The position numbers and the translations under genes were made by a program. Below are positions 3,743 to 34,695 of a DNA stretch of 35,602 nucleotides, piece after piece. The DNA is from Deltaproteobacteria bacterium (lineage in GTDB: Bacteria > Desulfobacterota > DSM-4660 > Desulfatiglandales > HGW-15), in assembly GCA_016932115.1 (NCBI GenBank), contig JAFGDM010000045.1, positions 1 through 35,602 of the forward strand, in the 5' to 3' direction. The notes under the pieces were generated by a model. It saw only the letters and a program-made list of their open reading frames with translations, was not told where the DNA came from and did not search any database. The first letter of the stretch is position 1; each line of letters starts with the position of its first letter.

Positions 3743-4903
3743 TTACTTCAACGCCTCCTCTCCCCCGAACTTCCGGTAGGGTGAAAAGCCACTGAGAATC
3801 GTCCGGTCTTCATCCGTGCTCCGGCCTTCGATCAGCCGCGCCACGACTTCTCCAACACCGGGCCCAATCATAAAACCCTGGCCGCACATGCCGGTTGCGT
3901 GAAGTAAGCCACCGACCTCACGGTTCCAGCCCACCAATGGGGAACCATCGGGTGTCATAGGATAAAGACCGCGCCACATTCGCCTTACCCGGATGTTCTT
4001 AAGCCTCGGGAGGAGTTGCACCATTCTTAACCCCACCTGAGACAGAAAGACCGATGTCTCTCGTTTATCGTTTCCCGCGATAAGAGGTTCCGGGGTGATA
4101 CAGAAGACAACCTGGCCCAGCCTATTCTGGTAAAAGTAGTAGTTTTTCGAGTCAGGGCCCGGCCTGAGATCAACCACCATACAGGTAAAAAAAGGTTTTA
4201 CCGGTTCCGTGATAGCCGCTTCATGGGAGTCCGGGATCACGGAAACGTCCACCCCCGCTGTTCTGCATAACTCCCTGGATCGAGGACCTGCGGCGTCCAC
4301 CACAACGGGTGATGTGTAGATTTTGTTTTTTGTGACCACGCCTACGGCTTTTCCCTGCTCCACGATAATTCTCTCGACAGGTTCTTTAAACGAGAAAGTC
4401 ACCCCCAGTTCCTTCGCTCTCCGATAAAACGCATTGACGGATCGGAGCGGGGATGCAGAACCGTCGTCCGCCGATACTGTTCCGCCCAACAAGCCTTCAA
4501 ATTTAATCCCGGGAATCACTTCTTGAATCTTCTCCGGCCCAAAGAAGTCGATGTTCAGCCCGTACTTCTTCTGAGTGGGAAGTATGCCCTTTAGCGCTTT
4601 TTCCTCCACCTCCCGATAAACAGGAAAGGTGTACCCCCCCTTCAGCCACTCGATGTTATCCCCATACGTTTCTTCCCAGGTGGAAAATATCTCCAGCGAC
4701 CTGAGGCAAGTGAGAATCTTGGCAGGGTCCGAATGGGTAGCCCGAATCCCCCCTATGGCTTTCTTGTTCTCTCCTTGTCCCGGAGAGGCATTGTTGTCCA
4801 AAACAAGGGTTCTGATCTTTTTTGCCCCCAGGGCCAGAGCGAGCGGAACACCGACAGAGCCGGCACCAACTACGATCACATCAAAAACCTTTCCCTTTGC
4901 CAC
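3743..4903 (-). CDS. FAD-dependent amino-acid/amine oxidoreductase, HcnC/DadA/SoxB-like subunit
   Basis: This is a single-domain DAO-superfamily flavoprotein of about 386 aa. An N-terminal Rossmann motif VVGAGSVGVPLALALG binds FAD, and the C-terminal VRRMWRGLYPMTPDGSPLVG followed by LLHATGMCGQGFMIGPGVGE is typical of DadA, sarcosine oxidase beta and HcnC. Such subunits oxidise the C-N bond of a small amino acid or secondary amine and pass electrons to a partner. The partner here is most likely the fused protein encoded just upstream (5032-7113). The substrate (proline, sarcosine, glycine, opine or other) cannot be read from sequence. Start choice: GTG at 4903 has GGAGG five bases upstream; an in-frame ATG at 4915 overlaps that site, and another ATG at 4969 has no clear site and adds residues before the FAD motif. 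The enzyme is likely soluble or membrane-associated. Confidence 0.85.
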   Translation of the reverse strand: MAKGKVFDVIVVGAGSVGVPLALALGAKKIRTLVLDNNASPGQGENKKAIGGIRATHSDPAKILTCLRSLEIFSTWEETYGDNIEWLKGGYTFPVYREVEEKALKGILPTQKKYGLNIDFFGPEKIQEVIPGIKFEGLLGGTVSADDGSASPLRSVNAFYRRAKELGVTFSFKEPVERIIVEQGKAVGVVTKNKIYTSPVVVDAAGPRSRELCRTAGVDVSVIPDSHEAAITEPVKPFFTCMVVDLRPGPDSKNYYFYQNRLGQVVFCITPEPLIAGNDKRETSVFLSQVGLRMVQLLPRLKNIRVRRMWRGLYPMTPDGSPLVGWNREVGGLLHATGMCGQGFMIGPGVGEVVARLIEGRSTDEDRTILSGFSPYRKFGGEEALK

Positions 4904-5031
4904 GTGTTCCTCCATTAATCCAAGCCGGCCCATAGCACACAGCACAAGCCACGCTGCGGAAGAAACCACCGCGCATTAATCCAATTTTTCATTTTTCTCC
5001 AGCCCCATGCACCTTGTAGCGTGTACCCCTT

Positions 5032-7113
5032 CTATTTCTCCCTTCTCATTCCCGCAAGGATGCCCAACCGCACCTCCACAAACAAAGCCCGATCAGTCCT
5101 GTCGGTGACCTGATCCTGATCCACTCCCTCTTCCTCAAAAATGCGCCATATCATAGGCCTGCATGTCTTTGCGCCGCAAGCTCCCATGCCGGCTCTTGTG
5201 AGGGCCTTAAGCTGATTGATATCCCTGACACCTTGCCGCACGGCAGTCCTGATCTCTCCCGCTGTCACCCTTTCACACCGACATATAATGGCTTCATCCG
5301 GAGGCACCTCCTTCTCATAGACCAGAGACGGCTCGATCTGCGGTTCCTGCACCCGGATGCCCGCCGCTCTTTTTGCCGTATCCTTTTCAAGTTTCACCTG
5401 AACAAGAAGGGTACCGGGGTACTTCTTCTGATTGGTAAGCACATTCTCCACAGGGTAGAGGCCCAAAATCGCGCCGTCCACATCCGTGACCCTCACCTTC
5501 CGACCAACCTCTACCTTTTCCCTCCAAACCTCGTAGGGCAAGGTCACGGTCGGCCGTTCTTCATCTTTTCTGTAATCGACCAGGGTTGCAGCCAACCCAG
5601 GACAGACAAAAACGCAATTCATGCATCCTTTGCAAAGGCTCACATCCGTTATGTACGGCAGGCCGGTGATTTTACCACCTTCAGTCCTGATAGCTTTTTC
5701 CGGGCAGACCGATGTGCAAGGGTTACAGGGAATCTCCTGCAGGCAGTGGAAAATTGGCATCACCCCTTTTTCCTCATTCGGTTTCTCTTTTTCTAGAATG
5801 GCTCCGGCCTTGGACTTGAGAATCCTTTCTTTCTCCTCCCAGGTCTCCGGGATATCCCCCTGATAAAGACCGAGGGATGCCGCGATCTTGAGCCCTCGTA
5901 TCCGGCCCGTCAACATGGCTGCGGATGCCTCGGCAATTTCATTCGCATCCCCCGCGGAATAAACTTCCATCCCGCAGTCCTCCCCCTTGGTGTAAAACTC
6001 GTTCACCTCCGCAAGGCCCACAGCAATAAGAAGCGTATCCACATCAAAAGTCTTGTGCGTTCCCGTTACGACTCGCCCGTTACGGTCCACGGCTGCGATG
6101 GTCACCTTTTCCACCCTTTCCTTACCTGCAGCCGACACTACCGTATGACTTGTATAAATAGGCACGCCCAGCCGTCTGAGTTTGTCGGCGTGGACTTTAT
6201 ATCCTCCCACGCAGGGCAATGCTTCGACTAGGGCTACCACGTGAATACCAGCCTGGATCGCGTGATACCCGGCGATGAGCCCCACATTTCCGCCCCCCAC
6301 GATCAGGATCCGGTCGGAGGAGCGCACAAGATCCCGATTAACCAGGGTCTGGAAAGCTCCCGCCCCGTATACACCCGGCAGGGTGTTTCCCGGGAAAGAA
6401 AGCATCTTCTCTCTTGCACCTGTGGCTATAAGAAGCCTCTGGGGCTTGACTTTTCTGTAAATGTTTCCTTTAACCACCCCAACAACCCGGTCGGAAAATA
6501 CCCCCACGGCCGTCGTACTCAGCCAAACTTCCACGGAATCCAGTCTTCTGACCTCTTCTTCAAGAATTCGGGCAATTTCAAAACCCCTGGTCCCCGCATG
6601 GGAATCCTCCACAGAGCCAAAGAATTTGTGGGTCTGGAGCAGGAGCTTTCCTCCCAGTTTACTCTTGTCATCCACAATCAGGGTGTCCACGCCTAGCTTC
6701 CCGAGTTCTATAGCCGCACAGAGCCCTGCAGGGCCTCCCCCTAGAACCAAAACTTCCACCTCTCGCAAGGGGGGTTCCTTAAGAGCCGGGACCCGGTCAT
6801 CCTCCGGAAGCTCGGGCAGTCCCTCTAAGCTTCTCACCGCCATATTATGTCGCAGTGGCGTCATACAGGCTTTGACGGGCAGTCCGTCCGCAATGACTAA
6901 ACACTGGGAGCACTGGCCGTTGGCGCAAAACATGCCCTGAGGACTGCCGTCTTTAGAGTGGTGACCGAAGATGTGAATGTCGTTGGCAATGAGGGCTGAA
7001 GCAAGCATTTCACCTTCATAGCCGGCAAGCATTTCACCGTTCCACATAAAAGAAACATTCTTTTTCTTAGGGATTTCAATAATGGGATGGCCTTCTATTC
7101 GTCTCCGGTTCAT
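5032..7113 (-). CDS. fused 2Fe-2S/FAD/NAD/2x4Fe-4S/BFD oxidoreductase (HcnA-HcnB or SoxA-like)
   Basis: This 693-aa electron-transfer flavoprotein shows in order: a plant-type [2Fe-2S] domain (Cys63, 68, 71, 83), FAD motif LVLGGGPAG at 122-130, a second dinucleotide motif IVGGGNVG at 271-278, two [4Fe-4S] motifs (Cys457, 463, 466, 470 and Cys494, 497, 500, 504), and a C-terminal BFD-like [2Fe-2S] domain (Cys611, 613, 646, 651). HcnA, HcnB, opine oxidase, proline dehydrogenase and sarcosine oxidase alpha subunits share parts of this layout. With the downstream DadA-like subunit it should form an amine or amino-acid dehydrogenase. The inserted 2x[4Fe-4S] block suggests electrons leave to a ferredoxin or membrane acceptor, not to oxygen. 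Its ribosome site is weak (AAGGA about 12 bases upstream). A candidate TusA-like selenoprotein gene lies 103 bp upstream on the same strand. Confidence 0.88.
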   Translation of the reverse strand: MNRRRIEGHPIIEIPKKKNVSFMWNGEMLAGYEGEMLASALIANDIHIFGHHSKDGSPQGMFCANGQCSQCLVIADGLPVKACMTPLRHNMAVRSLEGLPELPEDDRVPALKEPPLREVEVLVLGGGPAGLCAAIELGKLGVDTLIVDDKSKLGGKLLLQTHKFFGSVEDSHAGTRGFEIARILEEEVRRLDSVEVWLSTTAVGVFSDRVVGVVKGNIYRKVKPQRLLIATGAREKMLSFPGNTLPGVYGAGAFQTLVNRDLVRSSDRILIVGGGNVGLIAGYHAIQAGIHVVALVEALPCVGGYKVHADKLRRLGVPIYTSHTVVSAAGKERVEKVTIAAVDRNGRVVTGTHKTFDVDTLLIAVGLAEVNEFYTKGEDCGMEVYSAGDANEIAEASAAMLTGRIRGLKIAASLGLYQGDIPETWEEKERILKSKAGAILEKEKPNEEKGVMPIFHCLQEIPCNPCTSVCPEKAIRTEGGKITGLPYITDVSLCKGCMNCVFVCPGLAATLVDYRKDEERPTVTLPYEVWREKVEVGRKVRVTDVDGAILGLYPVENVLTNQKKYPGTLLVQVKLEKDTAKRAAGIRVQEPQIEPSLVYEKEVPPDEAIICRCERVTAGEIRTAVRQGVRDINQLKALTRAGMGACGAKTCRPMIWRIFEEEGVDQDQVTDRTDRALFVEVRLGILAGMRREK

Positions 7114-7216: not shown

Positions 7217-7447
7217 TCAGGGTTGATTACCTGATGAGAGTTTTTGCACCTTGATCCGCACATCCTCCAGAATTGGGACCTCTTCCACTACTTTTCCATC
7301 ATTATGAGAGATCACTCTCCTGATCTTCTCCACCTTATCTTTTTCAACAATGAATTCAAAAGACTGCCCGGCCGGCAAAATCCTCAGACATAACCCTATG
7401 TCCAGATAGGCCTTTCAGCAATCGCCACGGTAATCGACAAGGTCCAT
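7217..7447 (-). CDS. candidate TusA/SirA-like selenoprotein (in-frame UGA = Sec11)
   Basis: From ATG 7447 to the stop at 7219-7217 there are 76 codons, the usual size of TusA-type sulfurtransferases, interrupted only by UGA at 7417-7415. The start reads MDLVDYRGDC-U-KAYLDIGLC, then LRILPAGQSFEFIV. DYRG-D-C-U aligns with the TusA-family (D)xxG-x-x-C motif, U falling on the catalytic cysteine, and LPAGQSFEF fits the LxPGExLEV strand. The prolines of the canonical CPxP are absent. No in-frame ATG follows the UGA, so a short product starting later is unlikely. A hairpin with loop GGGU follows the UGA (7385-7404). Family knowledge: TusA proteins carry persulfide sulfur, and the relative YedF is linked to selenium metabolism. 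The ribosome site is weak. An open frame from ATG 7512 runs up to this start in another phase. Alternative: a pseudogene with one nonsense codon. Confidence 0.6.
7385..7404 (-). promoter_or_regulatory. candidate bacterial SECIS hairpin
   Basis: Directly downstream of the in-frame UGA (7417-7415), minus-strand GACATA (7402-7397) pairs perfectly with TATGTC (7392-7387) around the tetraloop GGGU (7396-7393). Two G-U pairs extend the stem outward. The loop begins 18 bases after the UGA, within the roughly 16-37 base range described for bacterial SECIS elements, and has G in its first two positions as the consensus asks. Confidence 0.55.
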
Positions 7448-7546: not shown

Positions 7547-7654
7547 CTATTTATTCTTCTTTTCTTTTTTGAGTTTTCGTTTTTCCTTCGGCGTAAGAAG
7601 AGCTTTTTTCATCTGTTCCCTTTTGCCTTTATCCTTACTTCCTTTATCTGCCAT
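7547..7654 (-). CDS. small lysine-rich protein, conserved-looking, function unknown
   Basis: ATG 7654 is preceded by GGGAGGAAGG, an excellent ribosome site ending four bases before the start; this decides the start over an upstream in-frame ATG at 7729. The product is 35 aa, starts MADKGSKDKGKREQ and ends TPKEKRKLKKEKKNK. About half the residues are Lys or Arg and it has no cysteine, so it is probably cytosolic and helical or disordered, with possible nucleic-acid or ribosome contact. From memory, near-identical short proteins occur widely in deltaproteobacteria as hypothetical proteins; I cannot confirm this here. A perfect -35 TTGACA lies at 7714-7719 on the minus strand, with only a weak -10. 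Function not recognised. Confidence 0.7.
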   Translation of the reverse strand: MADKGSKDKGKREQMKKALLTPKEKRKLKKEKKNK

Positions 7655-10470: not shown

Positions 10471-12404
<1,934 letters not shown>

Positions 12405-16864: not shown

Positions 16865-18624
16865 TTGTGCAATGACAGCTCGTCCTTATTCCGCTGACCG
16901 CAGACGCCGCAACGCGTGCATTCTCCAACCCTGCAGGTTTCGGACTCTTCGGCCCTAAGCGCCAGCATGGATTCCTTGATAAGATGTTCCCGGCGGATGC
17001 CATGATCAATAAAATCCCAGGGCAGAATTTCACGAAAAGACTTGCGCCTATAAACGTAAAAATCGGGATTAAGGTCCCTATTACGAAAAGTTTTCGTCCA
17101 GTCTCCATCGTTCTCGTGCAATGCGAGAAGCAAGGAAGACACCCTTCTGTCTCCTACGGATAAAAGCGTCTGTATATAGGCCCACTTAGACACATCAAAA
17201 CTTACCTTTACCCCCCCCTCCCTGGACAGGGCTTTCTTCAGCCGACGCTGTTTGTCCTTGAGAGAAGAAAGATCCTCCATGGGAAACCATTGAAACGGTG
17301 TGAAAGGCTTGGGTATAAAACAATTAACGCTAAGTTTGATTTGCCTGATTTTGCCCCGCGTGCTCGATTCCTTGACCATGTGATGCTTGATTTTCTTGAC
17401 GAGGGACACGATTTCCTCCACATCCTCTCTTGTCTCGGTTGGAAGACCGATCATGAAGTAGAGCCGCAGGCTGAAATCACCTGTTTTTGCAATCATTTTG
17501 ACCGCATCAATGATTTGCTTTTGCGTAAGATGTTTGTTGATCACACGGCGCAGTCTCTCCGAGCCGGCCTCAGGTGCGATAGCAATACTTCTCTGTCCGG
17601 CCTCCCAGAGATGGGTTGCCATATCTTGGGTCAGGGAATCAGCCCTCAAGGATGACACGGAATAACGACCCCCCCTCTCTACGATAAGGCCGGTGAGGTT
17701 TTCAATACCCGGCACATCCGAAACACAGGCGCTCAATAAACCCAGCGGATGCCCCTCTTCCAAGATCTCCTCAATCATCGAAGATAAAACTCCTTCATCA
17801 TGAAAGCGGGGTGGCCGATAAACGTATCCTGCAGCACAGAACCTGCAAGATCGACCGCAGCCCCTTGCAAGCTCCACAAGAACCTTGCCGCTGAATTCCG
17901 TGTCGCGGGTCAGAATAGTGGATCGTCTCACAGGCAAGGTATCCAGGTCCAAGCGGCTTACAGGGATACTTTCCGGGATGGATGGGTCGATCACGTGTCG
18001 CGATTTGATGAGACCATTATCGTAATACTCGATACTATAAAAGGAGGGCACGTAAAGAGAAGAAGCCTCCCTTGCCATGATCTTAATGATCTCCCGGCGG
18101 TCGGTATTGAACCGTTTCAGATCTCGGAAAAGATCCATGAAAGAGTCGAAAATCCCTTCCGCCTCGCCGAGAAGGAAAAAATCAAAAAAAGCGGCCAAAG
18201 GTTCCGGATTTAAAAAGGTATTGATTCCGCCCGCCGCGATCAGCGGGTGGAAGTCCGTCCTCTCGCGGGAAAGAAGCGGAATTTTCCCGAGCTGAAGTAT
18301 TTTTAGGATATTGCTATAGTCGTTTTCAAAGGAAAGAGAGAAGGCGACAAGATCGAATTTTTGGAGCGGGGAAAGAGACTCCACGGAAACAAGCCCTTTC
18401 CCCGAATCTCCGGTGGGGGACATTTCTTGAACATCGGGGAGGAAAAACCGCTCTGCCACGACATCCTGTCTCCGGTTCAGCAGAGCATAAACGACTTGAA
18501 AGCCCAAATTGGACATGCCGATGCGATAGACGTTGGGGTAGGCTAGGGCAACGGAAATCCTCCCTCCCCAATCCTTTTGCACGGCCCCTTTCTCCCGTGC
18601 GACTGGTGTCGCAGGCCTGATCAA
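16837..18624 (-). CDS. B12-binding-like radical SAM protein, translationally coupled to ftsZ
   Basis: This 595-aa protein has an N-terminal cobalamin-binding-like Rossmann region (about 20-165; VALAYPNVYRIGMSNLG, LIAAGGIN, FFLLGEAEG), then a radical SAM core with CxxxCxxC at Cys256, 260, 263 and the segments IAPEAGSERLRR and LYFMIGLPTET. The last residues hold four cysteines (564, 569, 572, 575), probably an extra cluster or zinc site. It matches the TIGR03960-type uncharacterised family, often paired or fused with a TIGR03936 partner and RNase G genes; no such partner follows here. Its start TTG (18624-18622) overlaps the ftsZ stop as TTGA, so translation is likely coupled. It ends the dcw operon at a hairpin. 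The reaction is unknown; some kind of RNA or protein modification is a guess. Confidence 0.88.
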   Translation of the reverse strand: MIRPATPVAREKGAVQKDWGGRISVALAYPNVYRIGMSNLGFQVVYALLNRRQDVVAERFFLPDVQEMSPTGDSGKGLVSVESLSPLQKFDLVAFSLSFENDYSNILKILQLGKIPLLSRERTDFHPLIAAGGINTFLNPEPLAAFFDFFLLGEAEGIFDSFMDLFRDLKRFNTDRREIIKIMAREASSLYVPSFYSIEYYDNGLIKSRHVIDPSIPESIPVSRLDLDTLPVRRSTILTRDTEFSGKVLVELARGCGRSCRFCAAGYVYRPPRFHDEGVLSSMIEEILEEGHPLGLLSACVSDVPGIENLTGLIVERGGRYSVSSLRADSLTQDMATHLWEAGQRSIAIAPEAGSERLRRVINKHLTQKQIIDAVKMIAKTGDFSLRLYFMIGLPTETREDVEEIVSLVKKIKHHMVKESSTRGKIRQIKLSVNCFIPKPFTPFQWFPMEDLSSLKDKQRRLKKALSREGGVKVSFDVSKWAYIQTLLSVGDRRVSSLLLALHENDGDWTKTFRNRDLNPDFYVYRRKSFREILPWDFIDHGIRREHLIKESMLALRAEESETCRVGECTRCGVCGQRNKDELSLHKALSGGEEL

Positions 18625-19826
18625 TCCGCCTTTGCCCTGAGAAACGTCGGATAGTCCAGGTTATCCTTGAAGATGCCCCGCAGGAAGCTCTTCTTATTCT
18701 GTGCCGGACCCTCTTCCCTGTGGAATTGCCGAGATCTCTCGGGGGCCCTTTGATAGGTGGGAATTTCCAAACTTGCCCCGTCTGCGCCCCGCACGGTCCA
18801 CGGGTTGCTCGCTTCCTCCGGCGTTACATCCCGCAATCTCACGACCTTGTTTTGATAATCCTTGTCGATACCGGTGGCGATAACCGTGATCTGGATTTCG
18901 TTGCCTAGGTTCTCATCAAAAACCACGCCCCAGAAAATCTCCGCGTCGTTGTCCACCTCTCCCTTGATATAGGTCGATGCCTCATCGATCTCCACCATGG
19001 TCATATCCGACGGGCCGGTAATGTTCATCAAAAGGCCCTTGGCACCTTTGATGGAGACGTCCTCCAGCAAGGGACTGTTGATCGCTTGCTTTGCGGCCTC
19101 CAGAGCTCGCGTCTCTCCGCCGGCTCTTCCCGTACCCATGATAGCCGTGCCCATCTGTTCCATCACCCTTTTCACATCCGCAAAATCCAGGTTGATAAAA
19201 CCACTGCTCAGGATCAGGTCGGAAATCCCTTTCACCGCATTGAGGAGCACCTCATCGGCACGGATGATGAGCTCCTTGAAGGTCGCGTTCTTGCTACCTA
19301 TACCCTTAAGACGCTCATTAGGAATAATGATCAAGGTGTCCACCTCCTTTTTGAGCGCTTCAATTCCGTCAAGAGCTTTTCTCATCCTTTTGTCCCCTTC
19401 AAAGTTGAAGGGTTTTGTGACGACGCCGACAGTGAGGGCACCGCTTTCCCGGCACTCCCTCGCCACTACCGGAGAAGCGCCCGTGCCGGTTCCTCCTCCC
19501 ATACCCGCAGTGACAAATACCATATCCGACCCGTCCACCGCTTCTCGAATCTCACTCTGGTTCTCCTCTGCGGAAAGGCGGCCGATTTCCGGATCCGCCC
19601 CCGCACCCAGCCCTTTGGTGACCGTGGTACCAAGCTGTATTCTGGTTGAGCAAGCGGATCGATCAAGAGCCTGGATATCCGTATTCGCTGTCATAAAATC
19701 CACGCCCTTCATTTTGGATGCGATCATGTTGTTGATGGCATTCCCGCCGGCACCACCCACGCCGACCACCCGAATTTTTGCCCCAATCCGACTGTTTTCT
19801 TTCTCTTCGACAAACTTAAATTTCAT
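18621..19826 (-). CDS. ftsZ: cell division protein FtsZ
   Basis: This is the tubulin-like GTPase (401 aa) that forms the division ring at mid-cell. The G-box GGGTGTG is at 110-116, VGVGGAGGNAINNM near 21-34, and the T7-loop NLDFAD at 212-217 provides the catalytic aspartates for the neighbouring subunit. The C-terminal peptide DYPTFLRAKAD ends the protein after a variable linker; it is the docking site for FtsA and other partners. The ATG has GGAGGAGG upstream. The 166-bp gap after ftsA is the largest in the distal part of the operon, so an internal promoter may be present, though I could not pick one with confidence. Confidence 0.98.
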   Translation of the reverse strand: MKFKFVEEKENSRIGAKIRVVGVGGAGGNAINNMIASKMKGVDFMTANTDIQALDRSACSTRIQLGTTVTKGLGAGADPEIGRLSAEENQSEIREAVDGSDMVFVTAGMGGGTGTGASPVVARECRESGALTVGVVTKPFNFEGDKRMRKALDGIEALKKEVDTLIIIPNERLKGIGSKNATFKELIIRADEVLLNAVKGISDLILSSGFINLDFADVKRVMEQMGTAIMGTGRAGGETRALEAAKQAINSPLLEDVSIKGAKGLLMNITGPSDMTMVEIDEASTYIKGEVDNDAEIFWGVVFDENLGNEIQITVIATGIDKDYQNKVVRLRDVTPEEASNPWTVRGADGASLEIPTYQRAPERSRQFHREEGPAQNKKSFLRGIFKDNLDYPTFLRAKAD

Positions 19827-19992
19827 AAATGTCCCTCCTCCTTCGTGTTATTGGAGTGATAAAGCAATGTTAAAATCGGAAACCCCCACGGCTCCTTCAC
19901 CCCAGGTCTTCATTACCCTATTACATCATCAGTCCGGTACTCCCCTTTACCGATTTTCCGTTGCTCCGGTTCTTCAAAATTCCTTTGCTCTA

Positions 19993-21216
19993 TTAAATGA
20001 CATCCTTAAACCATTTTTTCATTCTTTCCATGACACGGCCGAATATGTTGCTGTCTCTAATCCTAAAGCGTTTTCCTTCCTTAACTCTTTTGGCGCCGTA
20101 GAGGACGAGCCCCACGGCTGTTGCATACATAGGCTTGTTCACAATCTCCACGAGTCCGGTTATCCCTTGGGGGTAGCCGACCCGGCCGGGAGCATTAAAA
20201 ATCTGTTCCGCAATTTCCGCGACCCCGGCAAGCTCGGCGGAGCCTCCGGTAATCACCACCCCGGAGTTTATGAGATGGGAATATCCTGCCCGCTCCACTT
20301 CATTGTAGATGAGCGTGAAAATCTCCTCTACTCTCGGTTCCAAAATCTCGCCCAAGATTTGCCTGGACAAAACCCTTGACTTCCGTCCTCCTACACTGGG
20401 AACCTCGATGGTTTCGTCTTTGCCGATCATGGAGCTTAGCGCGCATCCATACTTGATTTTAATCTTTTCAGCCTCCGCTTTAGGCGTTCTCAGCCCGATG
20501 GATATGTCATAGGTTAGGTTGTCTCCGCCCAAAGCAAGCACGGAAGTGTGCTTGATTGTACCTCTTGAAAAAACTGCCAGATCGGTGGTGCCGCCTCCGA
20601 AGTCAAGGAGCGCCGCGCCTTGATTTCTCTCCTCCTCGCTCAGAACCGCTTCACTGGAGGCAAGGGATTCAAGGACTATGTCACATACATCCAAACCGGC
20701 CCGGTTTGCACACTTGATAATGTTCTGCGCAGATGTGACCGCCCCCGTCACAATGTGAATTTTTGCTTCGAGGCGAACGCCCGACATACCCAGGGGGTCT
20801 AGGATACCGTCTTGATCGTCCACAATAAATTCTTGCGTCAAAACATGGATAACCTCCCGATCCATGGGAATAGCCACGGCGCTTGCCGCTTCGATAACTC
20901 TATCGATGTCCTTTCGCGAGACCTCCTTTTCTTTGAGGGCGATGACGCCGTGGCTGTTAAATCCCTTGATGTGCCCCCCTGCGATTCCCGCATAGACGGA
21001 ACTGATTTCACAGCCTGCCATCGTCTCTGCCTCTTCGATCGCTTCCTTGATCGAATTGACCGTGCTTTCAATATTAACAACCACCCCTTTTCTGAGCCCG
21101 TCGGAAGGATGGCTCCCTATCCCGATGATTTCGATGCCGTCGTGGTGCACCTCTCCAACCACAGCGCACATTTTAGTGGTACCGATGTCCAGCCCTACGA
21201 TGATCTCTCCCGGCAT
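19993..21216 (-). CDS. ftsA: cell division protein FtsA
   Basis: This actin-like ATPase of 407 aa ties FtsZ filaments to the membrane and recruits later divisome proteins. Seen: GLDIGTTKMCAVVGE (residues 8-22), LLDFGGGTTDLAVF near 201 and VVITGGSAELAG near 317; the last residues FGRVMERMKKWFKDVI form the amphipathic membrane-targeting helix. Start: ATG 21216 follows AGGACAGGA and gives the usual start MPGEIIVGLDIG. An in-frame ATG at 21318 would add 34 unrelated residues and overlap ftsQ by 44 bases, so I reject it. It lies between ftsQ (58-bp gap) and ftsZ. Confidence 0.96.
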   Translation of the reverse strand: MPGEIIVGLDIGTTKMCAVVGEVHHDGIEIIGIGSHPSDGLRKGVVVNIESTVNSIKEAIEEAETMAGCEISSVYAGIAGGHIKGFNSHGVIALKEKEVSRKDIDRVIEAASAVAIPMDREVIHVLTQEFIVDDQDGILDPLGMSGVRLEAKIHIVTGAVTSAQNIIKCANRAGLDVCDIVLESLASSEAVLSEEERNQGAALLDFGGGTTDLAVFSRGTIKHTSVLALGGDNLTYDISIGLRTPKAEAEKIKIKYGCALSSMIGKDETIEVPSVGGRKSRVLSRQILGEILEPRVEEIFTLIYNEVERAGYSHLINSGVVITGGSAELAGVAEIAEQIFNAPGRVGYPQGITGLVEIVNKPMYATAVGLVLYGAKRVKEGKRFRIRDSNIFGRVMERMKKWFKDVI

Positions 21217-21274
21217 GGTCCTGTCCTTTTTCAGTGGTCCGCCCCTTTCTTCATCTATCCCGTAAATCGAGATT

Positions 21275-22096
21275 TCAGCCTTTTTCGAAGGCGACCGCAG
21301 CGCCTTCGCCATAGTCAAAATGAATGGCTTTTACCATATGGATCCGTCCTGTGACGTCCAGGTGCTCCACCAGTCTTTTCATCTCCTCCAGCTTCTCACT
21401 GAGGTGACCGGCCTGAACCCTGATTTGTCCCGGCATAAAAGAAACGTAGAGATGAAGCGTTCCGTCCTCTTTCAAATGGGCTTCGCACAAGTGGTCCAGA
21501 TCCCATGGAGACTCCTCTGATCGAAAGAGCTCAAGGACCTTAACCATGATCTTAATTTGTTCTTCCCGCTTCTTTTTTTTCTCAGACAGACCGGTTATGA
21601 CCGGAAAGTCGACTCGCTCATCAGACAACACCTCTTTAAACAGGTCTCCCGAGCGGTTCATGTAGTAAAGCCGGCCGTCTAGAACAATCGCCAAGGGTTC
21701 CTGCCTTTCCGCCCGGATAACAAGCAGGTGGGGAAAGCTTTTCTCCACATCCACTGATCGCACCCAGGGGTGCTTCTCGAGTTGCTCCTTAATCGCATTC
21801 AGGTCGACGGCCAGAAGACTGTGTTCGTAATTCAATTGGGCCATTTCGAGAAGCTCGCTTTTCAATTCCTCATCCACTCCCAACACCTCAACCTGCTCAA
21901 GACGTATATAAGGGGAGGTTAATAAGTACCCATACAAAACAAGGAATCCCAAACTAATTATTACCAAGACCACCACGGCAAAGGTCAGTTTCAGGAAAAA
22001 GGCACTCAGGACTTGCAATCTTTTCCATGCCTTTGAAAAGCGGCCGGCCTTCTTTTTCTTTATATCCTGCCCGGCTAGTATCTTTTTTCTCTTCAC
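21275..22096 (-). CDS. ftsQ: cell division protein FtsQ
   Basis: This bitopic inner-membrane protein of 273 aa has a short basic cytoplasmic start (KRKKILAGQDIKKKKAGR), one membrane helix (about 32-54), then a periplasmic POTRA domain beginning IRLEQVEVLGV and running through HPWVRSVDVEKSFPHLLVI, followed by the FtsQ beta domain. It links the early FtsZ ring to FtsL/FtsB and the FtsW/FtsI synthase. It overlaps murB by four bases, which suggests translational coupling. No ddl gene stands between murB and ftsQ, unlike in E. coli and several other dcw clusters. Confidence 0.92.
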   Translation of the reverse strand: MKRKKILAGQDIKKKKAGRFSKAWKRLQVLSAFFLKLTFAVVVLVIISLGFLVLYGYLLTSPYIRLEQVEVLGVDEELKSELLEMAQLNYEHSLLAVDLNAIKEQLEKHPWVRSVDVEKSFPHLLVIRAERQEPLAIVLDGRLYYMNRSGDLFKEVLSDERVDFPVITGLSEKKKKREEQIKIMVKVLELFRSEESPWDLDHLCEAHLKEDGTLHLYVSFMPGQIRVQAGHLSEKLEEMKRLVEHLDVTGRIHMVKAIHFDYGEGAAVAFEKG

Positions 22097-23070
22097 TTTC
22101 CCACGACCCTGATTTCAGGTTGAAGGTCGACTCCCATTTTTTCTCTGACCTTTTTTCTGGCTAGATCCATCAGAGCAAGCACATCGCAAGCCTTTGCCCC
22201 GCCGGTATTGACAATAAAATTTGCATGTTTGCTTGAAATGACGGCTCCTCCTACCCTGAAGCCTTTTAAACCTACTTGCTCGATCAGCCTGCCTGCAAAG
22301 TCCCCGGGAGGGTTCTGGAACACAGAGCCGCCGCTTGCATATTCCAAAGGTTGCGAGTTTTTGCGTTTTTCCCGGTAATGTCTCATTCTCTCTTCAACCT
22401 CCTCAGAGCTTCTCTTGGTGCACTTAAAGGTTGCTTTCACCACAACGCTTCCCTCCAGCATGTCAAGGCTTCTGTAAGCGAAATGAAGCTTTGCGCGATT
22501 TTTCTTGATCAGCTCCCCTGAAGATGACATGATTTCTATCTCCTGCAAGACATCCGCTGTCTCTTTTCCCCAGGCTCCGGCGTTCATGAGAACAGCCCCG
22601 CCGACAGTGCCCGGGATGCCTGCCAGAAACTCAAGCCCCCCCAGCCCGCGGCGGCGGCATTCATTGAGGAGATTCGATAAATGAAGGCCTGCTCCCGCGG
22701 AGAGATGATCCCCCTCCTTTTCAGACCTTTCCATGAGCGCCAGGTGCCCTCTTAGAAGGAGCGCCAAGCCTCTCAAACCTAGATCCTTGACAAGGAGGTT
22801 GCTGCCCTTGCCCAAGATAAGATAAGGGGTCGATGTTTTCTTTGCGTACTCAAGAACCCTCCGCAACGTGAACATGTCTTCCACAAAGCACAAAGCGTCT
22901 GCGTTTCCTCCCACCCGAAACGTCGTCCATTGCTCCATGGGTTGCTCAAAGAGAACCTTCTCAGCAAATAAATCTATCAAAGTCTTTCGTTGTGCTTCGT
23001 CCATAGCCCCAGGGAAAGATCTCTCCGCTTTCTTTTTCATTTCATAGCATTCAGGCTTTTTGATATTCAT
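22093..23070 (-). CDS. murB: UDP-N-acetylenolpyruvoylglucosamine reductase MurB
   Basis: This FAD enzyme reduces UDP-GlcNAc-enolpyruvate with NADPH to UDP-MurNAc. Seen: the FAD segment TTFRVGGNAD (49-58), ILGKGSNLLV (85-94), GIPGTVGGAVLMNAGAWG near 148-165 and ASGGSVFQNPPGDFAGRLIE near 244, containing the catalytic serine, with no long type I insertion. Start is uncertain: ATG 23070 has no strong ribosome site, and in-frame ATGs at 23040 and 23004 would also leave the FAD domain intact. It lies 65 bp after murC and overlaps ftsQ. Confidence 0.95.
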   Translation of the reverse strand: MNIKKPECYEMKKKAERSFPGAMDEAQRKTLIDLFAEKVLFEQPMEQWTTFRVGGNADALCFVEDMFTLRRVLEYAKKTSTPYLILGKGSNLLVKDLGLRGLALLLRGHLALMERSEKEGDHLSAGAGLHLSNLLNECRRRGLGGLEFLAGIPGTVGGAVLMNAGAWGKETADVLQEIEIMSSSGELIKKNRAKLHFAYRSLDMLEGSVVVKATFKCTKRSSEEVEERMRHYREKRKNSQPLEYASGGSVFQNPPGDFAGRLIEQVGLKGFRVGGAVISSKHANFIVNTGGAKACDVLALMDLARKKVREKMGVDLQPEIRVVGK

Positions 23071-23135
23071 CGTTGCCGATGCCTGATGCCGGCGGTTTTT
23101 TCAAACAACTGACTTGTTCCTCCATGTACTTCTTC

Positions 23136-24533
23136 TTAGTGCCCCATGAGCTCCGGTCGCAGTCGTTCCAGCAAAGCTTGCGCCACATGATGGATGTCGC
23201 CCGCCCCGAGGGTCATAACCACATCGCCCGGCTTCAGAATCCCGATCAATGTTTTGACAATGTCCTCACGGTCTTTACAAAGCAGCACCTCCTTGTGCCC
23301 GTGCTCCTTGATACCGCGGTAGAGCCATTCCGCGTCTACCCCTTCGAGGGGACGTTCTCCGGCCGAATAAAGCGGCGCCAGAACAAGGACATCAGCGTCA
23401 TTAAAAGCGATCACAAAACGATCATATAGAACCTTGGTACGGCTGTAGCGGTGAGGCTGAAAGACAATGATCAGGCGCCTGTCAGGCCAGCTCGTCCTCG
23501 CCGTCCCCAGGGTTGCTGCGATCTCCGTAGGGTGATGCCCGTAGTCGTCCAGGACAAGAACGCCCGATCTTTCTCCCTTGATTTCAAAGCGCCTTGCTAA
23601 GCCTCCCAGATTCACGAGCCCTTTTTTGATATCCTCCATGCCGATACCCAGTTCCAGGCCCACCAAGATGGCCCCGAGCGCATTGAGAACGTTGTGTGTT
23701 CCCGGTTTCCCAACCGTGACGCGACCAAGAGATCGATTCCGATAAATCACCTCAAAACCGGTTTCAAGTTTACTCCTCACAAGATCCCGGGCTCTGAGAT
23801 CGGCCTGGGTGCTCATTCCGTAGGTCAGATAGCGCTTCTTGAGATGAGGAATAATGCCCTGGATTTCCTCATTGTCCAGGCAAAGGGCCGCTAGGCCGTA
23901 AAAAGGGATCTTATTGATGAATTCGATGAATGCCTGTCTTATAGCCTCAATGTTTCCATAGTGATCCAGATGCTCATGATCTATATTAGTCACCACGGCG
24001 ATCGTGGGAGAGAGGATCATAAAGGACCCGTCACTCTCATCGGACTCGGCCACCAAGATCTCTCCTTCCCCCAGCTTTGCATTGGCGCCTCCCCAGATAT
24101 CCAGTCTCCCGCCGATCACCACTGTAGGATCGAGATTTCCGCACATGAGGATAGAGGCCACCATGGACGTGGTCGTAGTCTTGCCATGTGCCCCGGCTAC
24201 GGCGATTCCAAACTTCAACCGCATCAATTCGGCCAGCATTTCCGCCCTGGGAATCACCGGGATGTATTGTTCACGAGCCTCACAGATTTCAGGATTATCT
24301 TCCTGTACGGCAGACGAATAGACCACCACGTCCGCCCCCTCGACGTTTTTCCTGCTGTGGTCCGAAAAAATCCTTCCTCCCAGCCTGGAGAGTCTTGCTG
24401 TTACTGCCGATACCTTGATATCCGATCCACTCACCACGTAGCCCAGATTCAAGAGGAGTTCTGCAATGCCGCTCATGCCGATACCACCGACGCCTACCAA
24501 ATGAATGTGCTTGGTTTTTCCCAGGCCCCTCAT
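23136..24533 (-). CDS. murC: UDP-N-acetylmuramate--L-alanine ligase MurC
   Basis: This first ATP-dependent peptide ligase adds L-Ala to UDP-MurNAc. Seen: the N-terminal Rossmann motif HLVGVGGIGMSGIAELL (11-27), ATP-binding GAHGKTT (114-120), SDESDGSF near 164, NIDHEHLDHYG near 183 and DDYGHHPTEI near 330. The length of 465 aa fits MurC (about 455-490). It overlaps the end of murG by four bases. It is cytoplasmic and needs Mg. Confidence 0.97.
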   Translation of the reverse strand: MRGLGKTKHIHLVGVGGIGMSGIAELLLNLGYVVSGSDIKVSAVTARLSRLGGRIFSDHSRKNVEGADVVVYSSAVQEDNPEICEAREQYIPVIPRAEMLAELMRLKFGIAVAGAHGKTTTTSMVASILMCGNLDPTVVIGGRLDIWGGANAKLGEGEILVAESDESDGSFMILSPTIAVVTNIDHEHLDHYGNIEAIRQAFIEFINKIPFYGLAALCLDNEEIQGIIPHLKKRYLTYGMSTQADLRARDLVRSKLETGFEVIYRNRSLGRVTVGKPGTHNVLNALGAILVGLELGIGMEDIKKGLVNLGGLARRFEIKGERSGVLVLDDYGHHPTEIAATLGTARTSWPDRRLIIVFQPHRYSRTKVLYDRFVIAFNDADVLVLAPLYSAGERPLEGVDAEWLYRGIKEHGHKEVLLCKDREDIVKTLIGILKPGDVVMTLGAGDIHHVAQALLERLRPELMGH

Positions 24534-25630
24534 AGCGGTATCATCCCCATCAGCAAATTCGCGATTTCCTGCGCAGCCGCGGGCATTGCAGCCCTCCCGG
24601 CATTGGCCGCCATGTTTTTTAGAACCCCCGGATTTTGCATATACTTCACCACCGAATCAGCCAGGGTTTCACCGCTCAGTGCTTCCTGCAAAATCAAATC
24701 CGCCCCGCCTGCCTTGACCAGGCACCCGGCGTTCGTCTCCTGGTGATGGTTGGCAGCATAGGGATAGGGGACCAGTATGGAAGGCTTGCCGAGGGCGGCC
24801 AGTTCAAATACGGCGCCGGCGCCGGCGCGGCTCAAAACAAGGTCCGCCTCTCGACAGGCCCCCGCCATATCTTCGATAAAGGCTGTGACTTCACCCTGAA
24901 GTCCCTTCTCTCGGTACGCGGCAAGAACCCTTCCGTAATCAGAACGACCTGTCTGATGAATCACGCGCAACTCGATACCCCTCTGCTTCATGATGACCAA
25001 AGCATCCACCAAAGCATCATTAAGAGCGCGGGCCCCCTGGCTTCCCCCTACAGCCAGAATCGTGAATCTCCCATCCTTTCGATCTTGATGTTTAGCCTCC
25101 AGGAACTGTTCCCGGACGGGATTGCCTGTAAGATAAAGTGACCCGCCGCTGAAATACTCTCGACTCTCTTCAAAGGAGATAAACACCCTGTCCACCACCA
25201 GGCAAAGCAGCCGGTTTGTAAAGCCGGGATAAGAATTCTGCTCATGAATCGCTGAAGGAATGCCTAAGAGCTTGGCCGAGACGCACACAGGGCCCGAGGA
25301 ATAGCCGCCCACGCCTAAAACCAGATGTGGCTTGAATCGATGGAATATGCCCAGGCATTGGAAAAGGCTCCAGGGCAATTTCAAAAGCCCAAGGGCACCT
25401 CTCCAACCCCTGCCTTTCATGCCCTCCACAGCGATGGAAGCTTGATCAAAGTATGAGCCCCTGATGATTTCCGATTCCATTCGCTTCGTGCCGGTTACAA
25501 AAAGGATTTTTGCCCTCTCGCATCTCTTTTTGATTTCCCTGGCTACAGCCAAACCGGGAAACAGATGCCCGCCCGTGCCCCCCCCGGCTATCATGACCCG
25601 AATCTCTGTTTTTATTTCACCTGGAGGCAC
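24530..25630 (-). CDS. murG: UDP-GlcNAc:lipid I GlcNAc transferase MurG
   Basis: This peripheral inner-membrane GT28 glycosyltransferase turns lipid I into lipid II. Seen: GGGTGGHLFPGLAVA (16-30), the GVGGYSSGP motif near 108, VGGSQGARALND near 194, and LSRAGAGAVFELAALGKPSILVP-type nucleotide-sugar binding segments near 258-280. Length 366 aa. The start is GTG 25630: AAGGAGATAA lies just upstream and consists of the last ftsW codons and stop, so the ribosome site of murG is built into ftsW. About 10 residues precede the usual family start. Confidence 0.96.
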   Translation of the reverse strand: MPPGEIKTEIRVMIAGGGTGGHLFPGLAVAREIKKRCERAKILFVTGTKRMESEIIRGSYFDQASIAVEGMKGRGWRGALGLLKLPWSLFQCLGIFHRFKPHLVLGVGGYSSGPVCVSAKLLGIPSAIHEQNSYPGFTNRLLCLVVDRVFISFEESREYFSGGSLYLTGNPVREQFLEAKHQDRKDGRFTILAVGGSQGARALNDALVDALVIMKQRGIELRVIHQTGRSDYGRVLAAYREKGLQGEVTAFIEDMAGACREADLVLSRAGAGAVFELAALGKPSILVPYPYAANHHQETNAGCLVKAGGADLILQEALSGETLADSVVKYMQNPGVLKNMAANAGRAAMPAAAQEIANLLMGMIPL

Positions 25631-25632
25631 CG

Positions 25633-26736
25633 TTATCTCCTTGCCGAAATGTTTAGAAGTATCCCGATCCCGATGAGACTAATCAGCAACGAAGAGCCTC
25701 CGTAGCTGATAAAGGGAAGGGTCAGTCCCTTGGTCGGAAGCAGACCCAGCACGACCCCCATATTGACAAGGACCTGTAACCCCAAAAAAATAGTGATGGA
25801 CAAGGCCAGATAAGTGCTGTACAGATCCGGTGCACTAAGAGCGACCCTGATCCCCCTCACAATGAGAATCCCGAAGAGAACCAGAATCAGAGCAAAACCC
25901 GCCAAGCCCAGTTCCTCCGCAACAATGCTAAGAATGAAATCCGTGTGGGGCTCCGGCAGGTAAAAGAGCTTCTGTTTGCTGTTACCCAGGCCCACGCCCA
26001 AAATGCCGCCCGATCCGAAAGCCAGGAAAGAGTGGATGATCTGGAATCCCAGCCCCTGCGGATCATCCCAGGGGTTGAGAAAAGCCCACCACCGCTTAAG
26101 ACGGTAGTCTGCCTTTAAGACAAGATAGATCAGTAGCGGCACCGACAAAAGCAGAAGGCTAAAGAGGTGGAGCAAACTGACGCCGGCTACAAAGAGAATG
26201 AGCAAAAGCCAGCACCCTAGAATGACGGTCGTGCCCAGATCCGGCTGCAAAACTATGAGGGCCATAAAAGCAGCGGCCACAAACAAGTGGGGCATCAGAC
26301 CCCTGAAGAAAGAGCCGACATTGGCCCCGTTCTTGGATAAGGCGTAGGCAATGTAAAAGGCCAAAGCCAATTTCGCCGGTTCCGAAGGCTGCAAAGAAAT
26401 GCCTGCGACGCGAATCCACCGACATGCTCCACCCACCCTGACCCCAAATCCGGGAACGAAGAGAAGCAGGAGAAGGAGAAAACTGATTCCGAGGAGTGGA
26501 TAAACAATACGGGCGTAAAAATAAGCCGGTGCGTTCTTCACAATAATCATAAAGCACAATCCAAGAAGGCAAAAGGTCGCTTGTCTTTTGAGATAGAAGT
26601 AACCGTCTCCCAACTTGTGTTCTGCTAGAAGAGAACTGGCGCTGAAAATGGCCACCAACCCTATCGAGAGCAAAAGCAGGGTGGGTATGAGCAACATGAA
26701 GTCGTAGGAAAACCGTTCCTGATTACCCTCTGCCAT
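25633..26736 (-). CDS. ftsW: lipid II polymerase FtsW
   Basis: This SEDS-family integral membrane glycosyltransferase of 367 aa has about ten membrane helices and polymerises glycan strands at the septum together with FtsI. Conserved segments: RWIRVAGISLQPSEPAKLAL near 107, QPDLGTT near 164, NPWDDPQGLGFQ near 220, LPEPHTDFILSIVAEELG near 257, and LPTKGLTLPFISYGGSSLL near 332. RodA is a relative, but the dcw position makes FtsW the better call. It overlaps murD by 14 bases and is followed by murG after two bases. Confidence 0.96.
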   Translation of the reverse strand: MAEGNQERFSYDFMLLIPTLLLLSIGLVAIFSASSLLAEHKLGDGYFYLKRQATFCLLGLCFMIIVKNAPAYFYARIVYPLLGISFLLLLLLFVPGFGVRVGGACRWIRVAGISLQPSEPAKLALAFYIAYALSKNGANVGSFFRGLMPHLFVAAAFMALIVLQPDLGTTVILGCWLLLILFVAGVSLLHLFSLLLLSVPLLIYLVLKADYRLKRWWAFLNPWDDPQGLGFQIIHSFLAFGSGGILGVGLGNSKQKLFYLPEPHTDFILSIVAEELGLAGFALILVLFGILIVRGIRVALSAPDLYSTYLALSITIFLGLQVLVNMGVVLGLLPTKGLTLPFISYGGSSLLISLIGIGILLNISARR

Positions 26737-28087
26737 CCCTGAGCCTTTCTACCGCTTCTTTGAAAACCCTTCCTCGGTGCTTATAGTCAGTGAACATGTC
26801 AAAGCTGGAGCACGCCGGTGCAAGAAGAACCGCATCCTTAGGCATGGCGCAGGAGAACGCCTGATTTACGGCATCCTGCATGTCCGCAGCCATAGAGTAA
26901 GGCACGACTCCCTGAAATGCTCGCGCCATGAGAAATCTTGATTCTCCCAGAAGCACAGCCTTTCTCACCTTCCCCTGAGCAGCCGGGGCAAGGGGGGAGT
27001 AGTCCCCTCCCTTGTCGCGTCCCCCGGCAATCAGAATCAGCGGACCATGATAAGCCGCCACGCTACGGCACGCAGCATCAACATTGGTTGCTTTGGAGTC
27101 GTCATAGAAAGTAACTTCGCCGATCCGTCCCACGAACTCCTGGCGATGTGGAAGCCCTCGAAAAGTGTCCGCAGCCTGCTGAATTACGGAAGGCTTGATT
27201 CGCAGTGCGAGACTCGCCAGCACGGCGGCCATAAGGTTTTCCCGATTGTGCTGACCGGGCAGCGCCCATTTTTCGAGGGCCACTTCGGTGATTTCCCCCC
27301 CAGGAATAAAAGCCTTGATTTTTTCCCTCTCCAGAAAGGCGTGACGGTGCTTTTTTCTTTCTCTGCCATAGCGCAAGATTTTCGCGCCTTTGTCCGGCAT
27401 TCGTCCACGAAGAGCCGGATCGTCGTCATTCAGCACGGCCCAGTCTCCCGGTATGAGATTTTGAAAGATACTCAACTTGGACGCAACATAATGGCTGTAG
27501 GCCGTATAGCGGTCAAGATGATCAGACGAGATATTGAGCAGTACCGCTACCCTGGGGTGAAAGCTTTCCATCGTGTCGAGTTGAAAGCTGCTCACCTCAA
27601 TCACAGCATAATCCGCCTTCTTCCCCGACGTGGCATAGTCAATAAAAGGCGTCCCGATGTTGCCCCCTACAAAAACGTTCAACCCCGCCCTTTCCAGCAC
27701 AGAGCCTAAAAACGCCGTAACCGTAGATTTGCCGTTTGTCCCTGTAACCGCCACAATGGGGGTATCCGTAAGCCGGCAGGCGACTTCCATTTCTCCCAGA
27801 ACAGGGACCCCTTTCTCCCTCGCAGCCATCAGAGGTGCTATCTCCCGTGGAACCCCCGGGCTCACGATGATCTCGTCCGCAGAGAGGAAGGTTTTTGTTT
27901 GATGACCTCCGGTTTCGAAGATCACGCCAAGCTCCTTCGCTTCATGTAGAACCCCCGGGTCCAGCTCTGATGCGGTCTTGATCTCACTCACCGTTGCCCG
28001 TGCGCCCTGTGTTGCAAGCCACCGGAGTACCGAAAGACCTGATTTGCCAAGACCGACGACAAGAATACGTTTGTTCCCTACGTTCAT
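26723..28087 (-). CDS. murD: UDP-MurNAc-L-Ala--D-Glu ligase MurD
   Basis: This second Mur ligase adds D-glutamate. Seen: VVGLGKSGLSVLRWLA (10-25), ATP-binding GTNGKST (116-122), NISSDHLDRY near 184, GLPHRQEFVG near 307, FYDDSKATN near 324 and ACSSFDMFTDYKHRG near 425, a MurD-specific block. 454 aa. A 172-bp gap separates it from mraY, the widest inside the cluster. That gap holds short open frames but none with convincing coding character, so an internal promoter is possible. Confidence 0.97.
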   Translation of the reverse strand: MNVGNKRILVVGLGKSGLSVLRWLATQGARATVSEIKTASELDPGVLHEAKELGVIFETGGHQTKTFLSADEIIVSPGVPREIAPLMAAREKGVPVLGEMEVACRLTDTPIVAVTGTNGKSTVTAFLGSVLERAGLNVFVGGNIGTPFIDYATSGKKADYAVIEVSSFQLDTMESFHPRVAVLLNISSDHLDRYTAYSHYVASKLSIFQNLIPGDWAVLNDDDPALRGRMPDKGAKILRYGRERKKHRHAFLEREKIKAFIPGGEITEVALEKWALPGQHNRENLMAAVLASLALRIKPSVIQQAADTFRGLPHRQEFVGRIGEVTFYDDSKATNVDAACRSVAAYHGPLILIAGGRDKGGDYSPLAPAAQGKVRKAVLLGESRFLMARAFQGVVPYSMAADMQDAVNQAFSCAMPKDAVLLAPACSSFDMFTDYKHRGRVFKEAVERLRDGRG

Positions 28088-28259
28088 AGAATTCTCAAAG
28101 GAGTGTTGGAGCTTCCGCGTAACGAGACCCTACACGGCCCAAAATACATGGCCTATCACCCGACCTTCCTGTGAATGAATCAGCCTCCTGCCCCAACCTC
28201 TGTGTTTTAAACCTTTTTTCCATCACTTCATCTCAGGTACTTGATCATGCCGGTCTTTA

Positions 28260-29339: not shown

Positions 29340-29425
29340 GGTCCCTTTCCCGACTCAGGCTTTCCCGCCTGCATCAAGAATCTTCTCCAAAGCCTACCCT
29401 CTTCAGAGACCTTCCGATTCCACTA

Positions 29426-32358: not shown

Positions 32359-32383
32359 GACTGATTGCCCGACTCCCGATCGA

Positions 32384-34333: not shown

Positions 34334-34695
34334 GGCAAGACAACAATTTGGGCCGGCGAAGGAGCCTTGAGCCCGAAGGCGCGAGCCGCTTCTTCCAAAT
34401 ATTGAGGCGACTTTAGAGTCGCGAGCTCAAGCCTCAGCTTCTTGTTAAGATCTTTCAACCTGAGCTCCTCACGTTTGAGACGGCTCAGATCATATCCGAT
34501 CTGGGTGCCCTCAAGATTGGACCATACATAGCCTATGCCGCTTCCCATAAAAATAAAAAGCATGAGCGTGATCAGCAGGATCTGGCGGGGTGTGAAATGG
34601 AACCGGCCCTTACTGATTTTTGTGTTTCTAACTCGAATACCTGTATCCGCATTCCTTTTTCTTTCAATTTCAGATGCTTTGATCACTCTGATCAT
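34330..34695 (-). CDS. ftsL: cell division protein FtsL
   Basis: This small bitopic protein of 121 aa has a basic cytoplasmic start, a membrane helix (about 39-59, ILLITLMLFIFMGSGIGYVW) and a periplasmic coiled coil (about 70-97, SRLKREELRLKDLNKKLRLE). It ends with LEEAARAFGLKAPSPAQIVV, a common FtsL/FtsB end. It forms the FtsQLB complex that activates FtsWI. Identification rests on topology and position, since the sequence is poorly conserved. ATG 34695 overlaps the rsmH end by 26 bases. Confidence 0.88.
   Translation of the reverse strand: MIRVIKASEIERKRNADTGIRVRNTKISKGRFHFTPRQILLITLMLFIFMGSGIGYVWSNLEGTQIGYDLSRLKREELRLKDLNKKLRLELATLKSPQYLEEAARAFGLKAPSPAQIVVLP

Follow-up and report, generated by a model that had tools for sequence, protein, structure and literature searches.

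The apparently broken gene at positions 7217-7447 on the minus strand of the window, the whole 35,602-nucleotide stretch of DNA analysed here, is almost certainly an intact selenoprotein gene that uses an in-frame UGA as selenocysteine (Sec); there is no experiment showing Sec in the protein. Its product, termed Sec-TusA, is predicted to adopt a TusA-like fold, and appears to add a selenoprotein family that is lacking from the current inventory.

An in-frame UGA under conservation

The coding frame of Sec-TusA starts with an ATG (7445-7447) and ends with a TGA (7217-7219), encoding 76 residues with Sec at position 11. It consists of the ATG and nine further codons, the internal TGA (codon 11, 7415-7417) and then 65 codons up to the terminal TGA, giving the translation MDLVDYRGDC-U-KAYLDIGLCLRILPAGQSFEFIVEKDKVEKIRRVISHNDGKVVEEVPILEDVRIKVQKLSSGNQP, in which Cys10 is encoded by the TGC (7418-7420) immediately 5' of the UGA. 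Frame, UGA and stop are as described in the original prediction of a 76-codon minus-strand frame with a single UGA at codon 11. Its statement that no start codon exists downstream does not hold: a TTG at +13 and GTG codons at +28, +34, +43, +52 and +56 occur 3' of the UGA, and ATG is absent from this part of the frame. By itself the frame would not be remarkable, the chance of 65 open codons past the UGA being ~0.04-0.07 on the frame alone. It is carried far beyond chance by its conservation, namely the UGA shared by homologs in 46 genomes, the low post-UGA dN/dS and a covarying hairpin.

Homologs of Sec-TusA occur within the same phylum in at least 46 genomes, with identities of 25-67% over the aligned parts. 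A search of 61 related genomes revealed the protein in 22, at 48-67% identity when its own genome is excluded, with the TGA at the same place in each. Profile A1, built from 20 proteins of the related-genome matches and run on 395 genomes across the phylum, retrieved 27 carriers, 18 of them new and from many families, all with TGA at the same column; the wider profile A2, of 45 proteins, added six more carriers, with TGA in every one. Altogether, the UGA occupies the identical alignment site in 46/46 carrier genomes, where Cys is encoded in 0/46, and the vicinal Cys-Sec pair is invariant in all 45 aligned proteins. The profile searches were confined to one phylum, beyond which only a pattern scan of a named genome collection was performed. 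Single-sequence patterns gave no match in this collection, probably being too strict, and an alignment-based scan then succeeded; all the carriers it identified are Desulfobacteraceae, Desulfobacterales, Thermodesulfobacteriota or "Deltaproteobacteria" MAGs, including seven further contigs that were not matched to the 46 genomes. A tblastn search of plasmids yielded no match to Sec-TusA. The family tree, based on 73 columns, is poorly resolved.

No protein with Cys at the Sec site was found with the two profiles in the 61 relatives and up to 395 genomes of the phylum, and the usual selenoprotein criterion of Cys homologs at this site, which is customary and not obligatory, is not met. Weaker profile matches without UGA were considered as Cys orthologs, and those that were read proved to be ordinary TusA or YedF.

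For pairs of relatives with unsaturated synonymous change, the dN/dS is ~0.1-0.3 over 60 codons following the UGA, and this holds with the hairpin region excluded. By this estimate, the post-UGA sequence is under strong purifying selection, and the criterion of a conserved in-frame UGA with conserved coding on both sides is met in 46/46 genomes. Homologs that stop or decay at the UGA would have refuted the prediction; they were looked for, and all 46 genomes keep the UGA.

A covarying SECIS hairpin downstream of the UGA

The SECIS hairpin (7386-7403, minus strand) has a stem of 7403-7397 paired with 7392-7386, comprising six Watson-Crick pairs and a basal G-U pair, and a GGGU loop at 7396-7393. 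The hairpin, GACATA-GGGT-TATGTC, begins 12 nt past the UGA and has its loop 18 nt past it, the same distance as in the E. coli fdhF element with its GGUC loop, an element checked in E. coli sequences. Published bSECIS criteria comprise a loop of 3-9 nt with a G within its first two positions, a stem of 4-16 bp, a spacing of 16-37 nt and an MFE of <= -7.5 (PMC13188914). The window hairpin meets every one of them, with its GGGU loop, 6-7 bp, 18 nt and an MFE of -13 kcal/mol, and its single-sequence fold has a z of -1.8.

Across the alignment, the six-pair stem has standard pairs in 99.6% of cells, with compensatory two-sided changes at four of the six pairs. The covariation score was reached by 0/500 shuffles, and shifting the partner abolishes the pairing. 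RNAalifold independently arrived at this stem, extended by one basal G-U pair. A covariance model scores 55.8 bits at the hairpin, compared to 14.4 bits for the next best site in the window, and also detects the element in seven carriers excluded from its building, with 6/6 pairs in each. Rfam gave no match within the window at the gathering threshold. Thus the six-pair hairpin with a GGGU loop 18 bases past the UGA, as originally described, is confirmed, with a stem that covaries.

Sec machinery and reading of the UGA

The genome itself encodes selA, selB, tRNA-Sec and a selD that itself contains TGA, meeting the criterion that a selenoprotein-encoding genome has SelA, SelB, tRNA-Sec and SelD; the absence of selA, selB or selC, which would also have counted against the prediction, was checked and does not apply. 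Contig C127 has another selD-like gene with a TGA, which was set aside: it looks like an ordinary AIR-synthase-like gene, and the TGA precedes its ATG. Among the carriers, selB is found in 38 of the 40 tested and in all 34 of those with good assembly quality. This co-occurrence is consistent and not discriminating, since 49 of the 61 relatives have selB anyway. Two or three selB-like genes are present in carriers G264, G381, G364, G241, G217, G326, G011, G029, G049, G057 and G398; the extra one in G049 (L034:3725-5665) lies ~2 kb downstream of the LysR_Se/Sec-TusA pair.

Taken together, the UGA conservation, the selection, the covarying SECIS and the Sec machinery leave us with hardly any doubt that UGA codon 11 is read through as Sec, though without proof at the protein level. 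UGA normally terminates translation, and the single-sequence z of the hairpin is only modest, which would fit a true stop, in either a decayed gene or a leader peptide of 10 residues accompanied by a regulatory hairpin. We regard such a stop as scarcely credible, given that the UGA is invariant with no other in-frame stop, that the following 60 codons are constrained, that a confident predicted fold is built almost wholly from post-UGA residues and that the SECIS covaries; pseudogene and leader peptide are ruled out by the UGA invariance together with the dN/dS.

Sec-TusA is missing from current selenoprotein inventories

The 2026 inventory of prokaryotic selenoproteins, with its 119 families and subfamilies, contains no TusA/SirA-like family (PMC13188914). 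The "SirA-like" proteins of the 2008 and 2015 selenium-metabolism papers are Cys-containing YedF/SirA-like proteins, and no Sec form was reported there (PMC2432076, PMC5322559). In a 2021 paper on Deltaproteobacteria, the types characterised before include a Sec "sulfurtransferase", on which the text gives no details (PMC8318568). The original prediction assumed that SirA/TusA-like selenoproteins had already been reported from deltaproteobacteria; we found no such report in the open-access literature, although an unseen earlier one is possible. The usual discovery method, which pairs Sec with Cys homologs, would miss Sec-TusA because the family seems to have none; the deep-Sep method may likewise miss selenoproteins without Cys homologs (PMC12013277). 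Standard annotation would show the Sec-TusA genes as 10-codon fragments, as pseudogenes or not at all.

Predicted TusA scaffold without the CPxP motif

The AlphaFold2 model of Sec-TusA (pLDDT 92.2, pTM 0.79) has a β-α-β-α-β-β topology with helix 1 starting from Cys10, and in this model the TusA-fold criterion of a reactive residue at the start of helix 1 is met. Structure comparison revealed a chain of the YeeE-YeeD (TsuA-TsuB) thiosulfate uptake complex as the best PDB match, with a TM of 0.78 over 73 columns, which we take to be the TusA-like TsuB part of the complex, followed by TusA/SirA-like structures with TM of 0.71-0.76. There are also partial matches to methyltransferase domains, which probably reflect a common small α-β topology. 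Alignment with hhalign against TusA domains of the same lineage, spanning 67 columns, placed the Cys-Sec pair on the CP motif, with an E of 6.7e-6 and a probability of 84.7%. The family profile also retrieves TusA and YedF at E of 4e-5 to 0.03, and the criterion of detectable homology to TusA is met.

By contrast, the protein of the window remains unclassified by Pfam and NCBIfam, without a match to Pfam TusA (PF01206; curated cut-off, 28.6 bits). Fifteen of 45 members touch PF01206 weakly (best E, 1.2e-4), and ten members scanned singly gave no Pfam TusA match. The CPxP criterion is unmet as well: in the TusA alignment the C and P of the motif stand at 90-100%, whereas the family has CU followed by K, R, A, S, W or G instead of P. 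A canonical TusA is ruled out by the missing motif and the Pfam cut-off. Likewise, the YedF criterion of a TusA-like domain followed by a DsrE-like domain is not met by a single-domain protein of 76 residues without a TIGR03527 match. As modelled, Sec-TusA has a TusA scaffold and is TusA-like rather than TusA, because the CPxP motif is absent and the curated cut-off is missed. The proposal that the UGA lies at the site of the TusA catalytic Cys therefore stands for the fold and the position, as supported by the model and hhalign, and fails for membership of canonical TusA. The broader claim, that the gene has a SECIS and encodes a TusA-like selenoprotein in which Cys and Sec are paired, is supported by the UGA conservation, the covariation, the sel genes, the predicted fold and the TusA profile match.

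One of the two TusA-family proteins of the same genome (L002, G000:C24:5638-5844) is itself without the catalytic Cys motif, having LDLRRMIIPLTLL where RGLxCPxP would stand.

Selenium-metabolism genes as recurrent neighbours in close relatives

In the window, Sec-TusA lies ~100 nt upstream of a same-strand gene (5032-7113, minus strand) that encodes Fer2_4, pyridine-nucleotide-disulfide oxidoreductase and BFD-like [2Fe-2S] parts and is sarcosine-oxidase-alpha-like (SoxA-like); a DAO-family FAD oxidoreductase gene (SoxB/ThiO-like) is located at 3743-4969, also on the minus strand. From this arrangement, a working link of the selenoprotein to the adjacent oxidoreductase operon had been inferred. 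However, the link exists in this genome only, as the SoxA-like and DAO genes stand beside Sec-TusA in none of the other neighbourhoods compared and neither is a conserved partner, whereas the usual place of Sec-TusA is directly after a selenium LysR regulator. That it acts in the pathway of these flavoproteins is thus highly improbable.

Of the 26 group I genomes with enough flanking sequence, 20 have a LysR regulator gene immediately 5' of Sec-TusA, in the same orientation. The LysR end is mostly just 26-67 nt away from the Sec-TusA UGA, which leaves almost no gap between the two genes or makes them overlap. NCBIfam NF040786 (selenium metabolism-associated regulator), which corresponds to the LysR_Se subfamily (PMC5322559), is matched by each of the 22 LysR proteins of the cluster, and a metallo-β-lactamase-fold (MBL) gene often precedes LysR. 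Downstream of Sec-TusA at locus L030 come selD, yedF, yedE, a tusA and a gene for a Se/S carrier of PF11823 (Se_S_carrier); parts of this downstream set are retained in L031, L036 and L044, with yedF near Sec-TusA in L030 and L044. Contig C48 of the window's own genome carries ftsX-like, ftsE-like, outer-membrane efflux-like, MBL, LysR and selD genes without Sec-TusA. The presence of this corresponding locus without the gene suggests, from gene order alone, that Sec-TusA moved from the LysR-selD locus to its position in the window. The neighbours of the distant members and of the window gene itself are not selenium genes.

Several further features of these regions were observed. A second subgroup (L080-L087; DYRxDCU[AS]GFxDVSLRLR) has recurrent molybdopterin-oxidoreductase-like and CbiK-like neighbours, named from sequence only, which are not selenium genes. 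A molybdopterin-binding (MoCF_biosynth) gene recurs near Sec-TusA in close and most distant subgroups (L044:5827-6873, L047:5999-7063 and L091:7288-8493, together with c4 members of L093 and L094). In the window, a short lysine-rich ORF (MADKGSKDKGKREQMKKALLTPKEKRKLKKEKKNK; 7551-7654, minus strand) lies just upstream of the selenoprotein gene. There are also ordinary groES/groEL genes (10471-12404) and a dcw (cell division, cell wall) cluster from ftsZ to mraW (18621-35602, minus strand), both likewise named from sequence only.

Proposed function of Sec-TusA

We propose that Sec-TusA is a Sec-based carrier of selenium (or sulfur), a role that is inferred in the absence of activity data and that we consider probable, with real room for doubt. 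In the proposed process, SelB and Sec-tRNA would read UGA codon 11, and the Sec11 selenol would bind incoming selenium or sulfane sulfur, forming a perselenide or selenopersulfide, with Cys10 as a putative resolving or partner thiol. Sec-TusA might then pass Se/S on within selenium assimilation, most plausibly between YedE or YedF and SelD, in parallel to TusA and TsuB, which hand on sulfur via Cys. As inferred from the conserved gene order, it would usually be regulated by the selenium-metabolism LysR. Against the carrier role stand the lack of experimental carrier activity, the missing CPxP of TusA, the non-selenium neighbours of the window gene and the more distant members, and the lipoprotein-like signals of some of the latter.

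The invariant Cys-Sec pair is also a motif of redox type, prokaryotic selenoproteins are for the most part regarded as redox proteins (PMC13188914), and an FAD/Fe-S oxidoreductase gene follows in the window; Sec-TusA might accordingly be a redox enzyme or sensor, in which a selenenylsulfide dyad serves a peroxide or disulfide reductase, instead of a chalcogen carrier. We consider this unlikely, though worth keeping in mind, in view of the TusA fold, whose reactive residue occupies the place of the TusA Cys, and of recurrent neighbours that are selenium-metabolism genes, not peroxidases or reductases, the oxidoreductase being no conserved partner. An improbable third role is the binding or detoxification of a metal or metalloid (e.g. 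Hg or As), with Cys-Sec as ligand. Such a ligand role has been proposed for the other CU-motif families SaoC, SaoL and HgcA, and selenoproteins predicted to handle metals repeatedly show CU motifs (PMC13188914 Table 1); exported lipoprotein-like members also exist in the present family. On the other side, the annotated neighbours include no recognised metal-resistance or Sao genes, and the fold is that of TusA.

If Sec-TusA is a carrier, SelD may be its client. The in vivo selenium donor of SelD is described as incompletely understood (PMC13188914). Being TusA-like, having Sec where the carrier residue stands and sharing its neighbourhood with the genes for LysR_Se, SelD, YedF and YedE, Sec-TusA offers itself as a direct, testable candidate. 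A more specific and still tentative idea, which we hold possible rather than probable, is that Sec-TusA is the missing selenium-delivery protein, on whose own Sec the selenium travels as a perselenide, with the YedE transporter or YedF as source and SelD as recipient. If true, selenoprotein synthesis would be fed with selenium by a selenoprotein, a self-reinforcing loop that would explain why no Cys version has been found. In a distant subgroup (L093, L094, L095 and L162; [DN]SRxDCU..GVGLRFR), the proteins have an N-terminal hydrophobic stretch ending in a lipobox-like Cys (e.g. FFLAGC, PVVSSC), suggesting that these members are exported lipoprotein selenoproteins. If so, their place of action would be outside the cytoplasm, with no direct way of feeding SelD. 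Hence a cytoplasmic SelD cannot be the client of every member, and the family may have more than one role.

Comparison with known proteins

Sec-TusA resembles SaoC, KCU-star and rhodanese forms 1-5 in having Sec in a small thiol-type protein, and some of these share the Cys-Sec pair (PMC13188914 Table 1). However, they are unrelated families, and Sec-TusA is matched by no NCBIfam model. Closer similarities are found with TusA (PF01206; E. coli TusA/YhhP; PDB 3lvj, 1dcj; SirA-like 3hz7) in the length, the fold, the D-x-R-G-x-x-(C/U) signature and the placement of the reactive residue where helix 1 begins. Compared to TusA, Sec-TusA has Sec for the catalytic Cys, where Cys never occurs in the family, an extra preceding Cys and no Pro after the Sec.

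The best structural match, TsuB/YeeD (PDB 8k1r, 8j4c), is the TusA-like partner of the thiosulfate transporter TsuA/YeeE, and TsuA is a distant relative of YedE, whose gene is near some Sec-TusA genes. TsuB uses a Cys for thiosulfate sulfur, whereas Sec-TusA is a separate protein with Sec. Finally, YedF (TIGR03527), a sulfurtransferase-like protein of selenium metabolism, shares the selenium context and an N-terminal TusA-like domain, and YedF domains are among the weak matches of the Sec-TusA family profile. Nevertheless, YedF possesses Cys in a CPxP motif and a C-terminal DsrE-like domain, whereas Sec-TusA consists of a single domain with Sec.
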